Part shown: positions 33,317 through 46,060 of the stretch, one piece after another
How positions within the stretch are numbered: the first letter of the stretch is position 1
Layout of the letters: each line of letters begins with the position of its first letter
NCBI RefSeq assembly: GCF_000970025.1
Contig: NZ_CP009528.1
Coordinates: 4,141,168 to 4,205,167, forward strand
Length of the DNA: 64,000 nucleotides
Reading direction: 5' to 3'
From: Methanosarcina barkeri MS
GTDB taxonomy: Archaea > Halobacteriota > Methanosarcinia > Methanosarcinales > Methanosarcinaceae
The notes under the pieces: generated by a model
What the model saw: only the letters and a program-made list of their open reading frames with translations
Told to the model about the DNA's origin: nothing
Database searches by the model: none
Made by a program: the position numbers and the translations under genes

Positions 33317-34306
33317 ATGGACAGTAATGTCATAGAAGTAAATAATCTTGAACATTCATACGGCTCTGTAAAAGCTGTTAACAATATCAGTTTTACTGTA
33401 AAACAGGGGGAGATTTTCTCATTCCTTGGTCCAAATGGGGCAGGCAAAAGTACCGTGATTAATATTCTTACGACACTCAGGAAACTCCAGAAAGGCGAAG
33501 CTAGAGTTAACGGGTATGATGTCGCAAAGGAACCAAACTCCGTAAGAAGGTCAATAGGTATTGTTTTCCAGATGCTTTGCCTCGATCATGAAATGACAGT
33601 GTCTGAAAATCTGGAATATCACGGTAGGATCTATTCGATGAAAAAAAAAGAAAGAAATAAACGAATCGAAGAACTTTTAAAGCTGACAGATCTGGAAAGT
33701 AAAAAGGACACCCTGGGGAAAGATTTGAGCGGTGGCATGAAGCGAAGGCTTGAGCTTGCAAGAGGGTTGATGACAAAACCTGCGGTCCTTTTCCTTGATG
33801 AGCCAACGATAGGTTTCGATATCCAGACGAGAATGAGAATGTGGGAATACCTTAGAGAGATTAAGAGAGAGGGTACTACTATATTCCTGACAACACACTA
33901 TATGGAAGAAGCCGATCAGTTGAGCGACAGGATAAGCATAATTGACCAGGGGAGAATAATCGTAACCGGAACCTCTGATGAATTAAAGAATAAACTTGGT
34001 AAAGACCTTATTTACCTGGAAACAAGCGATAATAAGGCTGCTGCAGAGATCTTAAGGTCACTTGAGTCAGTTAAAAGTATAACAGAAGATACGAAATCTT
34101 TGAGAATTATGATCAGGGAGGATGTTACTCATGTGCTTCCTCAAATTATGGAGAAAATTCGGAGAGAGGGGATAGACATTATAATCGTAAATATTAAAAA
34201 ACCTTCAATGGATGATGTTTTTGTTCATTACACAGGACACGGGTTAAGGGAAGGCAATGAAGACGAAAAACAGCAAGAAGTAGAAACGGTGGGGATTTCT
34301 AAATGA
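33317..34306 (+). CDS. ABC transporter ATP-binding protein, DrrA-like
   Basis: 329 residues. Walker A GPNGAGKSTVINIL, Q-loop GIVFQMLCLDHEMTV, signature DLSGGMKRRLELARGLM, Walker B VLFLDEPTIGFD, H-loop FLTTHYMEEADQ. A C-terminal domain carries MDDVFVHYTGHGLRE, the end signature of the daunorubicin-resistance (DrrA) group. It drives export of a hydrophobic compound or polysaccharide together with the permease gene it overlaps by 4 bp. Confidence 0.93.
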   Translation: MDSNVIEVNNLEHSYGSVKAVNNISFTVKQGEIFSFLGPNGAGKSTVINILTTLRKLQKGEARVNGYDVAKEPNSVRRSIGIVFQMLCLDHEMTVSENLEYHGRIYSMKKKERNKRIEELLKLTDLESKKDTLGKDLSGGMKRRLELARGLMTKPAVLFLDEPTIGFDIQTRMRMWEYLREIKREGTTIFLTTHYMEEADQLSDRISIIDQGRIIVTGTSDELKNKLGKDLIYLETSDNKAAAEILRSLESVKSITEDTKSLRIMIREDVTHVLPQIMEKIRREGIDIIIVNIKKPSMDDVFVHYTGHGLREGNEDEKQQEVETVGISK

Positions 34307-35136
34307 GCTTCGAATTTCGTGCCATATACTGGAGGGAGATGCTGAAATACTTCAGATATAAATCAGTACTCATCACTTCAATGATCCAACCTATTATGTG
34401 GCTGGCATTTTTTGGGCTTGCCATGTCAGATAGTTTTGACAAACTAACTTCATTTGTTCCAAATGAACCCGGCGTTCCCGTAGTCAAATATATTACCTAC
34501 ATGGGTGCAGGAATAATTGCAATGGATGTGCTGTTCAGCAGTTTGTTTGGAGGCACTACCCTTATGTTTGACAAAAAATTTAGCCTTTTGAGAGAAACTC
34601 TTGCAAGTCCAGTTCCCAGATCTCATATTATTCTCGGTGTTGGACTTTCCGGTGTGACTAAAGCCCTCTTTCAAACTTTCATAATAATAGGGTTCGGAAA
34701 ACTTGTAGGAATGGAGTTCTTTAAGGGATATACACTTATTGAAACTCTTATCGCAATAGTGGGTATTATGTTACTGGTGTCAATATTTACTCTTGGCTTC
34801 CTATTTCTGTCAGGTTCAATTGCAATTACCGTTGAAAATCCGGAGGGAATGCAGTCTATCCTCACCCTGGTTAGTATGCCCATTTTCTTCGTAAGTAACG
34901 CCCTTTATCCTATTGACGGCTTTCCTACTATCCTCAAGGTTCTATCGATGTTTAACCCGCTGACCCTTCTAGCAGGCGGAATTCGTTATTTTGCTTTGGG
35001 GACCGACTTCTCTGTGATGGGAACTCACTACATATATACACCAGTTGATATAGTCGTGTCTTTCCTGGGCCTCATTTTCTTCGCCCTTGTAATGTTATCT
35101 GCTGCTATGTGGAGGTTTAATAAAGTAGACATATAA
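34303..35136 (+). CDS. ABC-2 type permease, DrrB-like
   Basis: 277 residues with six membrane helices, the amphipathic REMLKYFRYKSVLITSMIQP N-terminus, KFSLLRETLASPVPRSHIIL after helix 2, and the ABC-2 signature area SMPIFFVSNALYPIDGFPTI then LSMFNPLTLLAGGIRYFALG. It pairs with the DrrA-like ATPase by an ATGA overlap. The exported substrate is unknown. Confidence 0.93.
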   Translation: MSFEFRAIYWREMLKYFRYKSVLITSMIQPIMWLAFFGLAMSDSFDKLTSFVPNEPGVPVVKYITYMGAGIIAMDVLFSSLFGGTTLMFDKKFSLLRETLASPVPRSHIILGVGLSGVTKALFQTFIIIGFGKLVGMEFFKGYTLIETLIAIVGIMLLVSIFTLGFLFLSGSIAITVENPEGMQSILTLVSMPIFFVSNALYPIDGFPTILKVLSMFNPLTLLAGGIRYFALGTDFSVMGTHYIYTPVDIVVSFLGLIFFALVMLSAAMWRFNKVDI

Positions 35137-36359: not shown

Positions 36360-36422
36360 TCACCGGGAGAATCTTCCAAAGCCACCAAAGCCACCAAAGC
36401 CCTGACCGCTGAGGTACATCAT
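36360..36422 (-). CDS. possible 20-residue Gly/Phe-rich peptide
   Basis: A short frame reads MMYLSGQGFGGFGGFGRFSR with stop at 36360. A weak SD (aaggt) lies about 7 nt upstream of the ATG at 36422. The repeated GFG units are unusual for this AT-rich stretch. It may be the left-most member of the short-peptide cluster, but the frame also continues upstream, so the start is uncertain. Confidence 0.3.
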   Translation of the reverse strand: MMYLSGQGFGGFGGFGRFSR

Positions 36423-37030
36423 CTTAAACCTTATAATCTCTAGAAAAATGGTGATTTTTGTATAACTCAAATAAAGCATTGACATTGTAAGTCCCTCCAC
36501 TTCTCTACTTTCAAAACTGTCTCTTTTCAATCCATCTTCCTTCAATAAAAATTGAGCATCTTCTGCCAATTTAACTCGGTTCACAGATACTTTGGATAAT
36601 ATTTGTTTTCGCCAACCTCCTTAGATATCCAGTTTATATCATACTCCCAAGTTATACTCCCAGGAATTTACTTTTGGAACTACAGGTAAGTATAAACAAT
36701 CTTTAATAGTTCCAGCTAAAAGATTTAGGGATTTAAAGGATATTAAGTTGGATAACTGGATTGTATATGCCTACACTGAGTAATAGTATCAAATTTAGGT
36801 CTATTGGAAAGTAACTGTTCCAATAAAGAACTACCAAGGAGCATCAATATCAAAGTATACTTTAAATTTATATATAATGTAAAGAACTAAAACTTCTTAC
36901 AAATAATAGTCTTTTAGTATTTAGAAACAGAATCTTTTACTGCAATAGTTATACAGGATTTCCAAGCATCTCGTTTCTTTAATTTCCATTTCAATTTTTC
37001 GGAGGTGAATACCCTTTAAAGGGAGCCATG

Positions 37031-37215: not shown

Positions 37216-37242
37216 GAAGTTACCTGAAAAGCAGGTAACTTC
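37216..37242 (-). terminator. strong terminator hairpin at the end of the short-peptide array
   Basis: GAAGTTACCTG (37216-37226) and CAGGTAACTTC (37232-37242) form a perfect 11-bp stem with a 5-nt loop. On the minus strand it is followed by ttcttcttt, 35 nt after the stop of the last peptide gene. Confidence 0.85.
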
Positions 37243-37277
37243 ATATGTTATTGTTATCTCTTAATCGTCATTATTGC

Positions 37278-37355
37278 TTAATCGCAGTAGAAGAATTTGA
37301 AGCATTCAGCTACATAGGAATAGCAGACATTTGAATAGAATATGCTGAAGGTCAT
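37278..37355 (-). CDS. short Cys-containing peptide gene, array member 1 (25 residues)
   Basis: The peptide opens MTFSIFYSNVCYSYVAECFK and ends FFYCD. It shares MTFSIFYS, Val-10, Tyr-14, AECFKFFY with members 2 and 3. Cys are at positions 11, 18 and 24. SD GGGAGGGG (37362-37369) lies 6 nt upstream of the ATG. Last gene before the terminator hairpin at 37216. The peptide is hydrophobic and aromatic, with no signal peptide. Conservation of the amino acids, start, SD and stop context across three copies shows it is translated. I recognise no family. Confidence 0.75.
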   Translation of the reverse strand: MTFSIFYSNVCYSYVAECFKFFYCD

Positions 37356-37394
37356 TTTTAACCCCTCCCATCTTTTTATTAAGTTTGTTCGTTC

Positions 37395-37453
37395 CCCGTT
37401 ATACCTGGCTTTCTGCAATTGGGAAATATAAGACCTATGATTATTCCCTGCAG
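37395..37453 (-). promoter_or_regulatory. conserved leader of peptide gene 1
   Basis: On the minus strand: CTGCAGGGAA ... TTCCC ... GCAG (37453 to 37413) folds into a two-part stem, followed by CCAGGTATAACGGGG (to about 37395), then the SD. It is the same in order and spacing as 37600-37661 and 37806-37865. Confidence 0.65.
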
Positions 37454-37476
37454 AAACCGTTTAATTTACAGCTTGA

Positions 37477-37563
37477 TTACCAGCAACAGTCTTCGTAAAA
37501 GAATTTGAAGCACTCAGCCTGATAGGTACTGCAGACCTTTGAATAGAATATGCTGAAAGTCAT
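37477..37563 (-). CDS. short Cys-containing peptide gene, array member 2 (28 residues)
   Basis: The peptide opens MTFSIFYSKVCSTYQAECFK and ends FFYEDCCW. Cys are at 11, 18, 26 and 27. Compared with members 1 and 3 the end is longer by three residues, with a CCW tail replacing CD. SD GGAGGA (37572-37577) lies 8 nt upstream. It stands between leader 1 and leader 2 on the same strand as the other members. Confidence 0.75.
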   Translation of the reverse strand: MTFSIFYSKVCSTYQAECFKFFYEDCCW

Positions 37564-37599
37564 AATACGTTTCCTCCAGTCTTTTCCTGATTGTTTATC

Positions 37600-37661
37600 C
37601 CCCGTTATACCCTGGCTCTCTGCTAGTGGGAAATATAAGACTTTATGGTCTTTCCCCGCAG
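37600..37661 (-). promoter_or_regulatory. conserved leader of peptide gene 2
   Basis: Minus strand: CTGCGGGGAAA (from 37661), inner GACcataaaGTC, TTTCCC, then GCAG (37623-37620), followed by CCAGGGTATAACGGGGG. The stem GGGAAA/TTTCCC is perfect here, and the inner hairpin GAC/GTC is extra. Confidence 0.65.
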
Positions 37662-37691
37662 AGACCATTTAATTCTAATTAGCACTCCTAC

Positions 37692-37769
37692 TTAATCGCA
37701 GTAGAAGAATTTGAAGCATTCAGCCTGATAGGCTTTGCTGACACAAGAATAAAAAATACTGAAAGTCAT
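37692..37769 (-). CDS. short Cys-containing peptide gene, array member 3 (25 residues)
   Basis: The peptide opens MTFSIFYSCVSKAYQAECFK and ends FFYCD. Cys are at 9, 18 and 24; the first Cys has moved by two positions relative to members 1 and 2. SD GGAGG (37780-37784) lies 10 nt upstream. Many differences from member 2 in the shared part are third-base or conservative changes, as expected for a coding sequence under selection. Confidence 0.75.
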   Translation of the reverse strand: MTFSIFYSCVSKAYQAECFKFFYCD

Positions 37770-37805
37770 GATATCATTTCCTCCAATCTGTTCTTGATTG
37801 TTTAT

Positions 37806-37865
37806 CCCCCGTTATACCTCGCCTCCTGCAGCCTGGACATATAATAACCTGGCCATTCCCTGCAG
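37806..37865 (-). promoter_or_regulatory. conserved leader of peptide gene 3
   Basis: Minus strand: CTGCAGGGAATGG (from 37865), then TATGTCC and GCAG (37829-37826), followed by GAGGTATAACGGGGG and AAACAATCA. The outer CTGC/GCAG pairing is kept while inner bases vary. Confidence 0.6.
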
Positions 37866-37899
37866 AGAGACATCTTACAATTCTTTTACATACGTTCAT

Positions 37900-37986
37900 T
37901 TAAAAGAACGAGAAAAAGAATCCAATGTTGTTTGTGAAGTTAAAACACTGGTTAAGGTTGAATCCAAAGATAAGTTCTGGAAACAT
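37900..37986 (-). CDS. short Phe-rich peptide gene, array member 4 (28 residues)
   Basis: The peptide opens MFPELIFGFNLNQCFNFTNN and ends IGFFFSFF. SD GGAGGG (37994-37999) lies 7 nt before the ATG. It is unrelated in sequence to members 1-3 but has the same size, strand, strong SD and position at the head of the array. Nine Phe in 28 residues and one Cys. An AT-rich TATA-like stretch (tatcaaaattg on the minus strand near 38075) may be the array promoter. Confidence 0.55.
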   Translation of the reverse strand: MFPELIFGFNLNQCFNFTNNIGFFFSFF

Positions 37987-38856
37987 GTTTATTCCCTCCG
38001 TAGTTTGTATTTTCGAAATCGATACTTGCATACTGTAGATAGCAATTTTATTTGCAACCGCTGTTCAATTTTGATATAATTTTTGTCTATCAAACCTCCA
38101 AGTCACATGGCTACTGTCAGCCACTTGATAATATTCATATGGTGGATTTCCTCTTATTTCAGGATCTACCGTTTAAAATATTAGCTAACAGTGACTGTAT
38201 ATAGCTATATATATTAAGTTATATAAGCTCAATAGAAAATCATCTTCTTATAAATAATACTTCTTAAATGTTTAGAGTAAAGGTTTCACATACAGACATA
38301 TGTTTTTTTAACTTATATTATGTTCAAAAGTTTAAAATTTATTCCCACTTAGATCTAAATATTTAATTGTATTCACAGGTCCAAAGAAAAAATTCTCTAA
38401 AATGTCTGGTGCAACCATCTTAATTCTGCCATCGTCTTTTTAGAAAATATGTAATATAAAAACAGTATAAATTTATTAGAACAAATACCGGGATAAGATT
38501 ATGAATTTTTTGGGAAAAGCCTCTCCTCTCATGAAATAGTTACAGCTATCTGTTCTCACTGCTTTCATTTTAGAGGATTCTGTTTACAGAAATTTTTGGT
38601 AAAGACCCGCGTTTTATACTGAAAAAATTCGTTAAAAAGTCCAAAACAGCATATAGAGCTTCAATTTTGAAAATATAGTTCGTACTTCTTGCTTTCAAAG
38701 CTAGAAACCAGTAGCCACGTGCCTTTGAATAGTCACTTTAGTCGTAAATTAAGAAAGCATAAGTTAAAATGGACTGTCTTACATAATGAGTAAAAACGTT
38801 GAAATTATTCAATATAATCCATTCATCACATTTCAGTAACTTTGGGGAAGGGGGAT

Positions 38857-39560
38857 ATGAATATTATCAAAAATAGTTTACCTGAGGGTGGATTCTCTAT
38901 TGTCGAGGTTTCCAATGTAAGGAAAAGCTACGTACTTAGGAGTCTGGAAATTTCCGTGCTCTCAGACATCAATCTCAAAACTGAGAGAGGAAAACTTCTG
39001 GCTATAATGAGCCCACCAGGCTCAGGAAAAAGTACTCTTGTGAACCTTATAGATTGCCTTGACAGGCCTGCTGAAGGTCAAGCTCTTGTCAGGAAGCGTG
39101 ACCTCAATAGAATGCCGAATCAAGAGCTTACCCGCCTTAGGGGGCTTGAAATTGATTTTGTGTTTCAGAGTTTTAATCTTGTTCCGCGCCTGACTGCCCT
39201 TGAGAATGTTTTGCTCCCAACTTTTGCTAATTCGAGAATCAATATTGATTCAACAAAGCATGCAACGGAACTTCTCAAAGTTATGGGAATTCATAACCAC
39301 ATGCATCACAGACCAGGAGAACTTTCAGGAAGGCAGTTCCAGAGGTTTTCAATCGTACCGCATATCAATGATCCTGTAATCCTTCTTGCGGACGAGCCGA
39401 CTGGAAACCTTGACTCCAGAATAGGAGCCTAAATCCTTTGTATATTATGGATTTGGATAACGAAGGGAGAACAGTAGTAATCGTCGCACACGACCCTGAA
39501 ATTGCAAAATATGCTAACAGAGTTATCCCAGTAAAAGATGAAATAATTCAATACAATTGA
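38857..39560 (+). pseudogene. decaying MacB-type ABC ATPase gene
   Basis: From ATG 38857 (SD aaggggg) it parallels the intact ATPase at 42359. Walker A is altered (SPPGSGKST for GPSGSGKST) and the signature is altered (LSGRQFQRFSI for LSGGQSQRVAI). A TAA at 39430 cuts the frame just after DEPTGNLDS. The end (EGRTVVIVAHDPEIAKYANR) continues in a shifted frame to 39560. Both active-site changes and the frame break indicate loss of function. The 38087-38841 gap before it is AT-rich. Confidence 0.85.
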
Positions 39561-39572
39561 AGGTGCAAGTAT

Positions 39573-40814
39573 ATGGAAATGATAAAGAAGATTACTGTAG
39601 CAACTCTTTTTTCCTTGCTTTTGATTTTCTTGCTTTTTGCAGTTCCTGCCTCTGCAGCTGTTGGGGGAGCCAATCTGAAAGTTACAATAGTCGAAACAAA
39701 TCCCTATCCTGCAAAAATAGGAGAATACCTGACTTTAACCGTTCAGGTAGAAAACATTGGAGGGGATAAAGCTGACAATGTTGACATCGAGGTTGTACCT
39801 CAATATCCTTTCTCTCTTGATTCAGAGACAAATGCCTTACAGAATGTTGGAGCCCTCAATCCTGGAAGGACTGCTACAAAGGAATTTTACCTTTTTGTAG
39901 ACAAAAATGCGCAGAAAGGAATCCGCTCCATTGACATCAGAACAAAAACAGGTAAAAACAGCCCCTGGAGTGAGAAAAGTTTTGACATACGAATAGGCAC
40001 TGAAACATTTAAGAGCAAAGGTACAGTTGAACTTAAGGAAGTTGCTTCGGAACCAGAAGTTTTCATGCCCGGAGACAGGGGTACTGTCACTGTAACTCTT
40101 ATAAACACTGCAAGCAATCCTACTGTCACCATTGATGGAAGTGACTTCGATACCAATGCCAGAATTCAGGCTGCAGTTTTAAAACCTTTATCTGATGGGA
40201 TAATCGTCCTTGACGCTCCTTATGAAGATATGGGCATTTTAGGGCCTGGAGATAGCATCAAACTGACTTTCAATGTTAAAGTTGCAGAAGACGCTCCAGA
40301 AGGAACTCACAACTTTGAACTTGCAATAGAGGGGAACTCCTTCGATTATAACAGCAGAAAGAATATTCCTCTCAAGGTAGATTCTTCTAACATAAGAGTG
40401 ATTCCTTCAAAAGAACTTCAACTGACAAATGGTGAATCTACAATTGAGTTCGATGTAGCGAACACTCATCCTAATGAGTTTAGCTCGGTTAGTATAAAAC
40501 CTGAAGCTGAAGGAGTCACATTTTACCCTGCTGAGTATTTCATAGGACCAATGAATCAGGACGAACTTTTTACGATTGAATTTAATGCCGTTGCAGACAA
40601 TTCATGGGGCACCAGTAAGGAAGGAGAGATAAACATGAGCCTCACTGCTAACTACAACAACGGAATCAACAGACATGCAAACACTGTAGGAGACCTGAAA
40701 TTTATAAACATTTCAGAGTCCCCTGAGTCTAATTCAACAGCCGTACTGGCAGGTGGACTTATTATAATCTCTGTTCCTGCAGCTCTCTTGTTCTACAGAA
40801 GAAGGAAACAATAA
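39573..40814 (+). CDS. exported COG1361/S-layer-type protein of an ABC export unit, copy 1
   Basis: 413 residues: signal peptide (about 5-27, FLLFAVPASAAVGG), then repeated Ig-like (CARDB/NEW3-type) domains and a C-terminal membrane anchor (about 388-407, AVLAGGLIIISVPAALLFYR) with a RRRKQ inside tail. Domain motifs include VTIVETNPYPAKIGEYLTLT, LNPGRTATKEFYLFVDKNAQ, then FMPGDRGTVTVTLINTASNP and LGPGDSIKLTFNVKVAEDAP. It probably plays the outside adaptor role for the MacB-type permease encoded next, as MacA does in bacteria; this is inference from gene order. About 90% identical to 43276-44529. Confidence 0.85.
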   Translation: MEMIKKITVATLFSLLLIFLLFAVPASAAVGGANLKVTIVETNPYPAKIGEYLTLTVQVENIGGDKADNVDIEVVPQYPFSLDSETNALQNVGALNPGRTATKEFYLFVDKNAQKGIRSIDIRTKTGKNSPWSEKSFDIRIGTETFKSKGTVELKEVASEPEVFMPGDRGTVTVTLINTASNPTVTIDGSDFDTNARIQAAVLKPLSDGIIVLDAPYEDMGILGPGDSIKLTFNVKVAEDAPEGTHNFELAIEGNSFDYNSRKNIPLKVDSSNIRVIPSKELQLTNGESTIEFDVANTHPNEFSSVSIKPEAEGVTFYPAEYFIGPMNQDELFTIEFNAVADNSWGTSKEGEINMSLTANYNNGINRHANTVGDLKFINISESPESNSTAVLAGGLIIISVPAALLFYRRRKQ

Positions 40815-40866
40815 TTAAAGAAATATTAAAGAAAGGTTAGCTGACATCATATTTGTGGGGGAAAAT

Positions 40867-42081
40867 ATGATAAAATTTTCACAGGCAGCTCGTATAGCAG
40901 CTGGAAGTATAGGTAGTGCTAAACTAAGGTCTGCACTTACAACACTGGGAATAGTAATTGGCATAGCTGCAGTAGTTGTTAACGCATCTCTTGGTGCCAG
41001 TTTTAACCAGTTTTTTACTGATGAGATCTCTTCTGTAGGCTCTAATTTTATTATCGCAGCTAGCGAACAGCCAAATCTCTTCTTTGATAACGAGTACAAT
41101 CTAATGAAGAATACTCCGGGAATTTCCGGCGTATCTCCAAGAAAATCGATGAGCGGGGATCTCACATATCTTTCTGAAACTAAAAATGTAAATATTGCAG
41201 GAATTAACAAAGATTTTCAGGAAATCCAGGGACTGCAAATGGAAGAGGGTACTTTCCTGACGGACAAAGATAGCGCTGTGGCTGTTCTTGGATATGATAT
41301 TGCAAATGACAAGTTCAGCAAAAATATTTCCCACAGGAGCACTGTAGAGATCGCTTTTCGACAGGAAAACGGTACCGTTGTAAAGAAAAGTTTTAAGGTA
41401 AAAGGAATATTGAAAAATTCCGAGCCAACTGTTGTGGGTGAGGATAGTGACTACGATTTAACAGTTTTTATTCCCGTTTCTACAATGAATGAGATGATCG
41501 GGGAAAAAGACTATGGAGCCTTCCTTGCGATGGCAGACAGTCCTGAGAAAATTCGTGATATTTCAGATGACGTGGATAGCAGATTCGCGAGGAACTTTGG
41601 AGTCCCGGAAAGAGATATTGATAATGAGGATTTAAAACCCTATTACGTCTTTAATCAGGAGGAAGTTCTTGAGCAAACTGGAAAAATAGGAGATGCTTTG
41701 AGTTCTTTCCTTCTCATTCTTGCCCTAATATCTCTTTTTGTGGGCTCGATAGGAATTATGAATATTATGCTTGTGACCGTAACTGAAAGAACCAGAGAAA
41801 TAGGGATAATGAAATCTGTAGGTTACAGCAATTCCAATATTCTATCTCTGTTCTTGCTGGAATCTGTAATGGTCAGTTCCTTTGGGGGGATCGTAGGTAC
41901 TGTAATAGGTGGTCTGGGAGCTTACGCTCTTGAAATTGCCCTTAAACTTCCTCCTGTTTTCCCCTTAACATTGATTGAAATAGGGATTGCAGTTTCGGTT
42001 CTTGTCGGGATAACTGCTGGTCTTTATCCTGCAAGAAAAGCTGCACGCATGAATCCTGTGGATGCCTTAAGGTATGAATAA
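40867..42081 (+). CDS. MacB/FtsX-type ABC permease
   Basis: Start ATG 40867 with SD ggggga (a GTG at 40855 would add four residues). 404 residues: helix 1 (about 20-40, SALTTLGIVIGIAAVVVNAS), a large outside domain (about 45-270), then three helices with the FtsX signature LILALISLFVGSIGIMNIML, ERTREIGIMKSVGYSNSNIL and AGLYPARKAARMNPVDALRY. These are mechanotransmission permeases that export peptides or lipoprotein-type cargo with a soluble ATPase. It lies 52 bp after the exported adaptor-like gene. Confidence 0.92.
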   Translation: MIKFSQAARIAAGSIGSAKLRSALTTLGIVIGIAAVVVNASLGASFNQFFTDEISSVGSNFIIAASEQPNLFFDNEYNLMKNTPGISGVSPRKSMSGDLTYLSETKNVNIAGINKDFQEIQGLQMEEGTFLTDKDSAVAVLGYDIANDKFSKNISHRSTVEIAFRQENGTVVKKSFKVKGILKNSEPTVVGEDSDYDLTVFIPVSTMNEMIGEKDYGAFLAMADSPEKIRDISDDVDSRFARNFGVPERDIDNEDLKPYYVFNQEEVLEQTGKIGDALSSFLLILALISLFVGSIGIMNIMLVTVTERTREIGIMKSVGYSNSNILSLFLLESVMVSSFGGIVGTVIGGLGAYALEIALKLPPVFPLTLIEIGIAVSVLVGITAGLYPARKAARMNPVDALRYE

Positions 42082-42129: not shown

Positions 42130-42358
42130 CTGTTTCAATCCGTTCCTCTTGACCAGCTCGATTGGATATTGATCGGTAAAAATAGTTTCAAAATAACTTC
42201 ATAACAAGTAGCTCTATGGATCCACTCAACGAATTTAGCACACTGGAAAATCACTCTACGGTTAACGCTTAAAACACAAAAATCGGACTAGGCTAAATTG
42301 TATGACACGTAGGAGATTTATTAATTAATTTGAATATTTGAAAAACAGAGGAGTAGAT

Positions 42359-43225
42359 ATGGAAACGAAGATTTTGATTAAAGACGTTTCTGCTCCAGGA
42401 GATTTAATTTTGGAGACAGAAACCGAAAATCTCACACTTGAAGTAGAACTGCCCTCTGGAGAAGGCCTCGTTAATTCAAAAGAAGAATCGTTTAAATGTA
42501 AACTGGGCCGTTCGAGAGATCTACAGAGTGACAAAACACATAGGACAGCGACTCCAATAATTAAAGTTATTGATGTCAAAAAGAGCTATACTCTTGGAGG
42601 TATGGAGGTTCCAATTCTTCATGATATAAACCTTAAAGTGCTAGAGGGAGAATTCCTTGCCATAATGGGACCATCGGGTTCGGGTAAAAGCACACTTATG
42701 AATCTTATCGGTTTTCTTGATAGGCCTACGGAAGGGACAATCATAATTAAAGGTCTGGATATCAATAAACTATCTGACAAGGAAGTTGCCAGGCTCAGAG
42801 GGTTAGAAATCGGTTTTGTTTTTCAGACATTCAACCTGATCCCCAGGCTTACAGCTCTTGAAAACGTTGAGCTTCCAACCTATGCCAACGCAAGGAGTGG
42901 AGTCGATACTCATGAAAGAGCAAAGGAATTACTTAAACTCGTGGGACTGGAAGATCGAATGCACCACAAGCCGGGTGAGCTTTCAGGTGGTCAATCCCAG
43001 AGAGTTGCTATTGCCCGAGCTCTTATCAATGACCCTGCGATCCTCCTTGCAGATGAACCCACTGGAAATCTGGACTCGAAGACAGGCTGTGAAATTCTAA
43101 ATATATTTAGAAGACTCAACGAAGACAGAAGAACAATTGTAATGATTACTCACGATCCGGAAATTGCAGGATATGCAGACAGGATAGTGCTCGTAAAGGA
43201 TGGAATAGTTCAGAATACGGAATAA
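42359..43225 (+). CDS. MacB-type ABC ATPase, intact copy
   Basis: Start ATG 42359 with SD gaggag. 288 residues: an unusual 60-residue N-terminal extension (METKILIKDVSAPGDLILET and on, acidic), then the ATPase domain with Walker [35 protein letters not shown], signature ELSGGQSQRVAIARAL, Walker B ILLADEPTGNLDS and H-loop MITHDPE. It most likely energises the permease at 40867, since the upstream ATPase is broken. The N-terminal extension is not found in typical MacB/LolD ATPases. Confidence 0.92.
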   Translation: METKILIKDVSAPGDLILETETENLTLEVELPSGEGLVNSKEESFKCKLGRSRDLQSDKTHRTATPIIKVIDVKKSYTLGGMEVPILHDINLKVLEGEFLAIMGPSGSGKSTLMNLIGFLDRPTEGTIIIKGLDINKLSDKEVARLRGLEIGFVFQTFNLIPRLTALENVELPTYANARSGVDTHERAKELLKLVGLEDRMHHKPGELSGGQSQRVAIARALINDPAILLADEPTGNLDSKTGCEILNIFRRLNEDRRTIVMITHDPEIAGYADRIVLVKDGIVQNTE

Positions 43226-43275: not shown

Positions 43276-44529
43276 ATGGCAAAAATCAAAAATTCATTTG
43301 TCCCTCTTGTATTATCCTGGCTTTTAGCTTCCTCGTTTTTTGCATCTTCTGCCTCTGCAGCTGTTGGGGGAGCAAATTTGAAAGTTACAATAGTTGAAAC
43401 AAATCCCTATCCTGCAAAAATAGGAGAATATCTGAATCTGACTGTTCAGGTGGAAAACATTGGTGGAGATAAAGCTGACAATGTTGACATCGAAGTTGTA
43501 CCTCAATATCCTTTCTCTCTTGATTCAGAAGCAAATGCCCTAAAGAATGTTGGAGCCCTCAATCCTGGCAGGACTGCTACAAAGGAATTTTACCTTTTTG
43601 TAGACAAAAATGCGCAGAAAGGAATCCGCTCCATTGACATCAGAACAAAAACAGGCAAAAACAGCCCCTGGAGTGAGAAAAGCTTTGACATACGAATAGG
43701 CACTGAAACATTTAACAGCAAAGGTACAGTTGAACTTAAGGAATTTGTCTCGGATCCGGAGGTTTTCATGCCAGGAGACAGGGGTACTGTCACTGTAACT
43801 CTTATAAACACTGCAAGTAATCCTACTGTCACCATTGATGGAAGTGACTTCGATACCAATGCCAGAATTCAGGCTGCAGTTTTAAAACCTTTATCTGATG
43901 GGATAATTGTTCTTGACGCTCCTTATGAAGATATGGGCATTTTAGGGCCTGGAGATAGCATCAAACTGACTTTCAATGTTAAAGTTGCAGAAGATGCCCC
44001 GGAAGGAACTCACAACTTTGAACTTGCAATAGAGGGGAACTCCTTTGATTACAACAGCAGAAAGAATATTCCTCTCAAGGTAGATTCTTCAAACATAAGA
44101 GTGATTCCTTCAAAAGAGCTCCAGATAGTAAATGGTAGATCTACTCTTGAGTTCGATGTAGCCAATACTCACCCTAATGAGTTTAGCTCGGTAAGCATAA
44201 AACCTGAAGCGGAAGGCGTCATATTTTACCCTGCTGAGTATTTTATAGGGCCAATGAATCAAGACGAGCTTTTTACGATTGAATTTAATGCGGTAACAGA
44301 CAATTTATCCGATGCCAGAAGGGACCCCTACGAGCCTATAAATCTAACACTTTCAGCAAATTACGGCAATGGAATAAATAAGCATGAGAATATAGTAAGC
44401 AATATGTATATTCAGTCCATTGAGGCAACTCAGGGCAGTTCGGGCATGCTTGTCCCAGGCTTATTACTTGTTGTCATCGCCGTTGCAGGCATACTAGTTT
44501 ACAGAAAGAAGAAACAGAGCAGAAAATGA
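43276..44529 (+). CDS. exported COG1361/S-layer-type protein, copy 2
   Basis: 417 residues with the same build as copy 1: signal peptide (about 8-29, SSFFASSASAAVGG), Ig-like domains and C-terminal anchor (about 393-412, GMLVPGLLLVVIAVAGILVY) with RKKKQSRK tail. The middle is nearly identical to copy 1, while the signal peptide and the last 90 residues differ. This fits a recent tandem duplication or gene conversion limited to the outside domains. No permease gene follows it. Confidence 0.88.
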   Translation: MAKIKNSFVPLVLSWLLASSFFASSASAAVGGANLKVTIVETNPYPAKIGEYLNLTVQVENIGGDKADNVDIEVVPQYPFSLDSEANALKNVGALNPGRTATKEFYLFVDKNAQKGIRSIDIRTKTGKNSPWSEKSFDIRIGTETFNSKGTVELKEFVSDPEVFMPGDRGTVTVTLINTASNPTVTIDGSDFDTNARIQAAVLKPLSDGIIVLDAPYEDMGILGPGDSIKLTFNVKVAEDAPEGTHNFELAIEGNSFDYNSRKNIPLKVDSSNIRVIPSKELQIVNGRSTLEFDVANTHPNEFSSVSIKPEAEGVIFYPAEYFIGPMNQDELFTIEFNAVTDNLSDARRDPYEPINLTLSANYGNGINKHENIVSNMYIQSIEATQGSSGMLVPGLLLVVIAVAGILVYRKKKQSRK

Positions 44530-44731: not shown

Positions 44732-46060
44732 CTATTTTATCGGAAGAGTAAAGATAAACGTGCTGCCTTTTTCTCCCTTTGATTCCACCCAGATATTCCC
44801 TCCATGAAGATCTACGAAGTTTTTAGCAATATAAAGTCCAAGTCCAGTTCCACCGTATCCCCTGGTTGTGGAAAAATCTGCCTGAATAAAAGGCATAAAC
44901 ATCCTTTCGTGATCCTCTTTTGACAGCCCTATTCCGCTATCCGAAACTTTAATCTCGAGCATCCCTTCTTTTTTGAGGGCGCTTACAGTAACCTTTTTCT
45001 TTTCAGGAGTGAGTTTTATAGCGTTATTCATGAGACTGTACAGGATCTGTCTCAGCTTTGTTCTATCAGCCCGGATGTTCTCAAGAGAGGCATCAACCTT
45101 TACTTCTACACTGACTTTCTTACTTGAGGCAAATGAGATAAGACTCATTCTTACCTCTCCTAGAAGGCTGGCAATATCTACATCTTCATAATTAAGGTTC
45201 TTTTCCCCGGTTTCGAGCATTGATATATCAAGTAGATAATTGATAATTTCCAGAAGGTTCTTCCCGCTTATGAGAATATTACTTACATATTTTGATTGCC
45301 TCGTGTTCAGGGACCCGAAAGCTCCTTCCAGCAGCAAATCGGAGAAACCTATTACCGAGTTAAGGGGGGTCCGAAGTTCATGGTTCATGTTAACCATCAG
45401 CCCATTTTTGGCCCAGTTTGAGGCTTCTAGATCTGTTTTCGCTTTGAGAAAATTATTTTTCAGCTCTATTTTTTCTTCCAGAATTCTCAAACTCTCTAAT
45501 TTCCCTTTTCTTTTAGCAAAAACATTGCTTTCTTCCATTAATTCTAGAAGGACTCTACCTGAAAGTTCTTCAAGAGGAATGGTATAGAGAAGTGTGATAC
45601 TTTTATTCTTTTCCAAAGCCATTGTTTCAATGGCCTTTCCACACGTTTCAAGACAGGGCTTAAGAGAATTTCCAGTGTTTTTAATCTCAAAATTTGTTCT
45701 AAACCCTGAAAATCCTCCAGAAAGGGTATTTCCATATCCTTTTTCGGCGAGTTCTTTTACTGCTGACGCAAGAAGAGTAAGATCTTCCAGGAGTGGATTA
45801 GCCGGCAGAAATTCTAATTGAGAGGAAGTGAGATAATGCTCGACATCCACTCCTGCCTTCATAAGTTCACTTTTTGCCCCTTCAGCAGCCAGTTTATCCG
45901 GGGAAACCCATAAGCAATATTCTCCCCCTTCAAGTCCTTCCTTAAAATAGGTAACAAGTAGTTCTATCAATCCTTCGGCGTCCTCATACACGGCAGAGAT
46001 CTGGTGACTCTGCGGAGCTTTTAAAGAAGGTCCAGAGTCTTCAGCAATATTTTTCCTCAA
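44732..46060 (-). CDS. MEDS-domain sensor histidine kinase
   Basis: 442 residues. The MEDS sensory domain (about 18-185: YEDAEGLIELLVTYFKEGLE, GGEYCLWVSPD, then FSGFRTNFEI and LLYTIPLEELSG) is followed by a coiled linker. HisKA carries MNHELRTPLNSVIGF with phospho-acceptor His227. HATPase has NNAIKLT, VSDSGIGLS and GYGGTGLGLYIAKNFVDLHG. No membrane segment, so it is a cytoplasmic sensor; MEDS domains occur with methylotrophy regulators (DcmR) and may bind a corrinoid-like or small ligand. No response regulator gene lies next to it, which is common in Methanosarcina. Confidence 0.93.
   Translation of the reverse strand: MRKNIAEDSGPSLKAPQSHQISAVYEDAEGLIELLVTYFKEGLEGGEYCLWVSPDKLAAEGAKSELMKAGVDVEHYLTSSQLEFLPANPLLEDLTLLASAVKELAEKGYGNTLSGGFSGFRTNFEIKNTGNSLKPCLETCGKAIETMALEKNKSITLLYTIPLEELSGRVLLELMEESNVFAKRKGKLESLRILEEKIELKNNFLKAKTDLEASNWAKNGLMVNMNHELRTPLNSVIGFSDLLLEGAFGSLNTRQSKYVSNILISGKNLLEIINYLLDISMLETGEKNLNYEDVDIASLLGEVRMSLISFASSKKVSVEVKVDASLENIRADRTKLRQILYSLMNNAIKLTPEKKKVTVSALKKEGMLEIKVSDSGIGLSKEDHERMFMPFIQADFSTTRGYGGTGLGLYIAKNFVDLHGGNIWVESKGEKGSTFIFTLPIK

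Follow-up and report, generated by a model that had tools for sequence, protein, structure and literature searches.

Staphylococcal PSMs are peptides of 20-25 or about 45 amino acids encoded by several related genes (PSM-alpha1-4), and a dedicated ABC transporter, Pmt, is needed for PSM export and for self-protection (PMC5080381). Leaderless multi-peptide bacteriocins such as aureocin A70 and its relatives are encoded in clusters of three to four peptides of about 30 amino acids, and their transporter genes have been implicated in secretion and immunity (PMC6131525). A survey of Methanosarcina mazei has described, in its main text, unannotated ORFs of up to 30 amino acids and hundreds of small proteins predicted to be translated from Ribo-seq data, and shows that translation of ORFs this short is common in the genus (PMC11456600). 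A tandem array of the kind analyzed here is not mentioned in that main text, and its supplementary tables may list single members.

A window of 64,000 nucleotides from the genome of Methanosarcina barkeri MS contains an array of very short peptide genes (A, B and C) next to an ABC transporter cassette. As in the PSM/Pmt system, short related peptide genes are combined with an ABC transporter, here by linkage only, and export is deduced from the genes. Unlike PSM/Pmt, the constant partner is a MacB-type transporter with a CARDB protein, the host is an archaeon and the cargo is swapped for unrelated peptides; in addition, searches of A, B and C against Pfam and NCBIfam revealed no sequence relation to PSMs, and an amphipathic alpha-helix is unsupported for A. 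With the leaderless bacteriocins the peptides share the absence of a leader or signal peptide, the clustering and the linkage to a transporter. However, the known bacteriocins are cationic whereas the net charge of A and B is close to zero or slightly negative, and the array is held by most of the genus instead of occurring sporadically; any activity is putative. By analogy, the module would work most like PSM/Pmt or the leaderless bacteriocins while being related to neither. As unannotated short ORFs of the same genus, the genes also resemble the M. mazei small proteins and spRNAs covered in the main text of the survey (PMC11456600).

The peptide genes and their leaders in Methanosarcina barkeri MS

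A first-pass annotation of this DNA had described four minus-strand frames of 25-28 codons with Shine-Dalgarno (SD) sequences. These frames, B and A1 to A3, are present at 37278-37986, each behind a near-consensus SD (Table 1). The set is not confined to four genes, since the overlooked gene C, on the same strand about 0.8 kb beyond the 3' hairpin, also belongs to it. B forms a family separate from A and has no A-type leader. A pattern common to A and C, Y-S/T-K-I/V-x4-Q/E-x3-F-K-x2-Y, was read by eye from alignments.

Table 1. Features of the peptide locus and the adjacent cassettes (positions in the window).
Feature	Position	Strand	Remarks
Peptide gene C	36360..36485	-	41 aa, MSMLYLSYTKITIFLEIIRFKMMYLSGQGFGGFGGFGRFSR; single-copy in 23/31 genus genomes, position constant
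11-bp hairpin with T-rich tail	37216..37242	-	96% of cells paired in 18 aligned loci
Peptide gene A3	37278..37355	-	25 aa
Leader motif before A3	37385..37405	-	GGTATAACGGGGNANRAACAA
Peptide gene A2	37477..37563	-	28 aa; CCW-bearing C-terminal extension
Leader motif before A2	37591..37611	-	GGTATAACGGGGNANRAACAA
Peptide gene A1	37692..37769	-	25 aa
Leader motif before A1	37798..37818	-	GGTATAACGGGGNANRAACAA
Peptide gene B	37900..37986	-	28 aa, MFPELIFGFNLNQCFNFTNNIGFFFSFF; homologues in 22 genomes
BRE/TATA-like stretch upstream of B	38072..38086	-	putative promoter, from sequence reading only
ATPase1, type-1 cassette	38842..39570	+	decayed: frameshift, stops, LSGRQFQ for LSGGQ
CARDB1	39573..40814	+	hydrophobic helix at N- and C-terminus; several predicted Ig-like domains between
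MacB/FtsX-type permease, type-1 cassette	40855..42081	+
ATPase2, adjacent type-2 cassette	42338..43225	+	intact
CARDB2	43276..44529	+

A search for the leader motif GGTATAACGGRRNANRAACAA with at most one mismatch identified 33 sites in 15 of 112 Methanosarcinaceae genomes, all in sense orientation before A genes, and the reversed-pattern control gave 0 sites. Other arrays with the same leader, named by the first-pass annotation as evidence that would support it, were found. The motif was absent from viral contigs, and in the contigs of GTDB genomes multiple matches occurred only in Methanosarcina, single matches elsewhere being chance-like. The widely conserved part of the leader is GTATAACGGGG..GAACAA; in many copies a stem of varying sequence is located 5' of it. 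The leader which the first-pass annotation had assigned to members 1-3 was only partly right: the motif precedes each A gene and the stem is imperfect before A1. The proposed CTGC-GGGAA...TTCCC-GCAG stem exists but is limited to one clade, and its covariation is weak. Stem variants comprise 21 bp in one copy of genome G024 and GCACCGG/CCGGTGC in one copy of G007, and in one leader of G004 the stem (TACTGCTT/AAGCAGTA) is supplied by the last part of the gene before it. RNAalifold predicted no pairs on the leader alignment. The stem given by hand showed changes on both sides in 5 of 12 pairs, again a weak covariation, and scored higher than all 500 shuffles but near slid versions of itself on some measures.

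The closing hairpin with its T-rich tail was confirmed. An alignment of 18 loci shows it to be conserved, and in two of its pairs both partners have changed; it is probably the 3' end of the B-A transcript. As a BRE/TATA-like stretch is visible only before B, the B-A array is likely to be transcribed as one unit. The stretch 38040-38170 (minus strand) upstream of B contains a conserved TTGGAGG(C/T)TTGATA. In G024 it reads as an ORF of 29 amino acids, which most species do not have. This candidate for an extra peptide (MNFTKWLTVAVRFGGLIEEIISRLNSGCK in G024) was rejected because in the majority of species its reading frame is interrupted or has neither start codon nor SD, and the stretch is probably a promoter or 5' UTR.

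A1 to A3 are about 80% identical, and the A units are direct repeats with a spacing of about 207 nt, which indicates tandem duplication. At two further loci (L042, 9390-9914, minus strand; L045, 10029-10364, plus strand) adjacent A units of 129-149 nt are nearly identical, and these appear to be recent tandem duplications in which the leader stem was dropped. Tandem repeats with one tiny hydrophobic ORF each are also known from the enterobacterial type I toxins Ldr and Ibs. Peptides of this type, restrained by RNA, would fit the tandem units and the structured leader, but no antisense gene was seen and no Rfam family is present in the region; instead of an antisense RNA partner a transporter cassette is linked, which this explanation leaves unaccounted for. 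We consider it very improbable.

Conservation across the genus and coding character

A profile built from the three A peptides recovered tandem arrays genus-wide. The hand-curated total was 82 A, 29 B and 23 C genes in 23 of 31 Methanosarcina genomes, with G006 entering this count through C only and with the weak A and B matches of G013 (E 0.002-7) assigned by position and SD. Nearly all loci have the gene order B-A(2-8)-C; in G026 three B-A-A units were found. G013 (L056, 8508-12729) has the B/A array on the strand opposite to C and about 3.5 kb apart from it, with diverged A peptides. Its type-1 cassette and array are on different contigs, and it represents a rearranged version of the locus.

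More than 20 genomes share the genes A, B and C with order and orientation unchanged, at E values down to 1e-21. An SD match of at least 5 nt was found before 112 of 134 A/B/C starts, whereas 5% of ATGs taken at random from the window have one. On account of this recurrence and this enrichment a chance origin of the frames is excluded, as the first-pass annotation had argued. The dN/dS values between genomes (NG86) were about 0.37 for A, 0.29 for C and 0.66 for B, and are descriptive because the pairs are not independent. B is the least constrained of the three, and A and C are under purifying selection. Together with frames that are the same across species, the values below 1 for A and C argue for the coding nature of these genes. 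The conserved leader and 3' hairpin would also be expected if the repeats were non-coding RNA or regulatory DNA with incidental frames. This is hardly credible in view of the conservation at the protein level over more than 20 species, the dN/dS of A and C well below 1, the conserved starts, SDs and stops and the length of exactly 25 amino acids in 70 of 82 A peptides.

The peptides diverge faster than the flanking proteins, the permease included. None of A, B and C matched a profile in Pfam, NCBIfam or PHROGs or had a significant match among PDB sequences, and only marginal matches to C were obtained outside the genus. The peptide family made in variant copies proved to be genuine and is unnamed.

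Linkage to the type-1 cassette and exchange of the peptides

In all loci with sufficient contig, except G013, the array is divergent from ATPase1-CARDB1-MacB, and this type-1 cassette is usually followed by ATPase2-CARDB2. Gene C is present in 23 of 23 assessable genus genomes with a type-1 cassette (G010, whose contig ends before the array, was left out of this count). Seven genomes without type-1 contain no array peptides; three of these have type-2 only (G003, G025, G027) and four have neither cassette (G001, G005, G011, G018). All sampled array-linked CARDB1 proteins fall into one clade of the CARDB tree with a support of 95/100. This strict linkage to a MacB-type transporter is in line with a membrane or export role, as had been suggested before. 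DrrAB (33317-35136), tried as the partner of the array, was rejected as it is missing beside the array in G015 and G026. A histidine kinase with a MEDS domain (44732-46060, minus strand) adjoins the type-2 cassette and is kept in most loci of the genus; it could act as a sensor for either cassette.

ATPase1 is decayed in the window genome and several close relatives, in all of which the array is nevertheless intact. It is also broken in L038 and L043, carries degenerate motifs in L037, L039 and L040 and is intact in other clades. This decay suggests that in the window genome and these relatives the permease is either energised by ATPase2 or part of a transporter whose role is being lost. The peptide-export ATPase models DarD and L_ocin_972 score on ATPase2, below their cut-offs.

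Two groups of genomes carry different peptides in the same slot. In G006 (L058, 7861-8381, plus strand) a 32-aa peptide (MFDTLIGIGNFAIQTATGNAFIAQIIGQWTWV and variants) is encoded four times in tandem, each time behind an SD; these genes replace A and B and are followed by two C-like peptides. The CARDB1 of this genome is nearest to that of the mazei-like G008, in which the locus lies at C1:432748-434519. In the genus g21, tandem SD-led copies of a 21-aa peptide (MLDFLIFAFNEFWFSYFQFYI and variants) were found, four intact ones in G064 and at least four in G067. These arrays (L064, 6639-7623; L065, 6431-8205; both minus strand) also carry 20- and 33-aa peptides beside the type-1 cassette, and their leader CCAGGTATAGAAAGAAGAACAAAATC can be aligned by eye to that of Methanosarcina. 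G064 has one further 21-aa copy, broken by a TAG. Profiles of the 32-aa and 21-aa peptides gave only marginal matches elsewhere in the 112 family genomes, and these low-complexity peptides may be very remotely homologous to B. No arrays were seen beside the cassettes of g3, g5, g24, g25 and the other genera sampled.

Within g21, G064 and G067 possess type-1 and the array, and G065 and G066 possess type-2 only and no array. The CARDB1 of g21 falls within the clade of Methanosarcina CARDB1 proteins (100/98) whereas its CARDB2 groups apart, so that slot and cassette appear to have moved together. A transfer of the type-1 module between genera is the simplest reading, although not a certain one, and the g21 branch is long. 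Since the same cassette faces different peptides in G006, G064 and G067, the module is conserved and its cargo changes.

Strict type-1 linkage could also mean that the peptides serve the MacB-type transporter itself, as small subunits in the membrane or as regulators, and are not its cargo. They are very hydrophobic and lack a signal peptide, and Methanosarcina offers precedents with MtrI, a small protein tied to a membrane complex (PMC12774963), and with sORF_05, reported in the main text of the M. mazei survey from a permease operon (PMC11456600). However, two to eight near-identical tandem copies per genome and the wholesale swap for unrelated peptides fit a fixed subunit poorly, and the permease has changed far more slowly than the peptides. 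We therefore regard a subunit or regulator as unlikely.

Peptide properties and proposed function

Metal binding by the peptides, which had been proposed from their cysteines, is not supported because the cysteine positions vary among homologues: in the 25-aa A peptides Cys occurs at position 18 in 22 of 70 and at position 24 in 52 of 70, and it is absent from 15 of 82 A, 11 of 29 B and 19 of 23 C peptides. At this locus the A peptides do contain several cysteines, but three to four each and not two to four. The mean net charge is +0.27 for A, -0.97 for B and +3.35 for C, so that C alone shows the cationic character of leaderless bacteriocins. Aromatic residues make up a fraction of 0.34 in A, 0.30 in B and 0.23 in C. 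All three start at an SD-led ATG and are 25-41 amino acids long, and no leader or signal sequence was evident by inspection.

The helical moment test gave no support for an amphipathic alpha-helix in A (p 0.43) or C (p 0.94). A beta-type alternation was detected in B (180 deg, p 0.0005) and C (160 deg, p 0.019). This alternation, the richness in aromatic residues, the predicted chain of Ig-like domains in CARDB1 and the presence of the array in most of the genus would suit short beta-prone peptides that assemble on the cell surface or matrix with CARDB1 as anchor. Such a structural role is improbable, however, as A shows no alternation, AlphaFold2 modelled C as a helix, albeit at a low pTM (pLDDT 71, pTM 0.37), and the cargo is replaced in some genomes.

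The reading we prefer, at roughly even odds (about 0.5), is that A, B and C are leaderless, aromatic, hydrophobic peptides that act at the membrane or outside the cell and that the type-1 MacB transporter with CARDB1 serves to export or clear them, with array and cassette forming one cargo-switching module. The peptides are very probably translated from separate small genes and, judging from their composition, would act at or outside the membrane through insertion or self-assembly. The divergently encoded MacB-type ABC transporter and the extracellular CARDB1 would then export or clear them. This last step is deduced from three things, the strict linkage, the shared inheritance of array and cassette, and the replacement of the cargo; linkage by itself would not make the peptides substrates. 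Unrelated peptides could replace the cargo in the slot of the conserved type-1 module, and where ATPase1 is decayed, ATPase2 would have to serve. Several points count against this preferred reading: the decay of ATPase1, the lack of support for an amphipathic alpha-helix in A, in which it differs from PSMs, the absence of a cationic character in A and B, and the occurrence of the array in most of the genus, mainly through descent, a distribution that bacteriocins do not usually show.

A wider proposal is more tentative: the type-1 MacB/CARDB1 lineage may carry interchangeable arrays of unrelated leaderless peptides for competition or communication among Methanosarcinaceae, and the whole module may be able to cross genera.

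Taken together, the constant pairing of array and type-1 cassette and the unrelated peptides in the same slot of related genomes point to an undescribed module for peptide export or peptide handling. Hardly any dedicated peptide export is known from methanogenic archaea. Genes as short as A, B and C escape standard annotation, and these three are unmatched in the profile libraries searched; most members of the best-studied methanogen genus, genetically tractable species included, have the array. Should the module prove to export peptides and to exchange its cargo, archaeal peptide systems could be found via the transporter and not via the peptide sequence.
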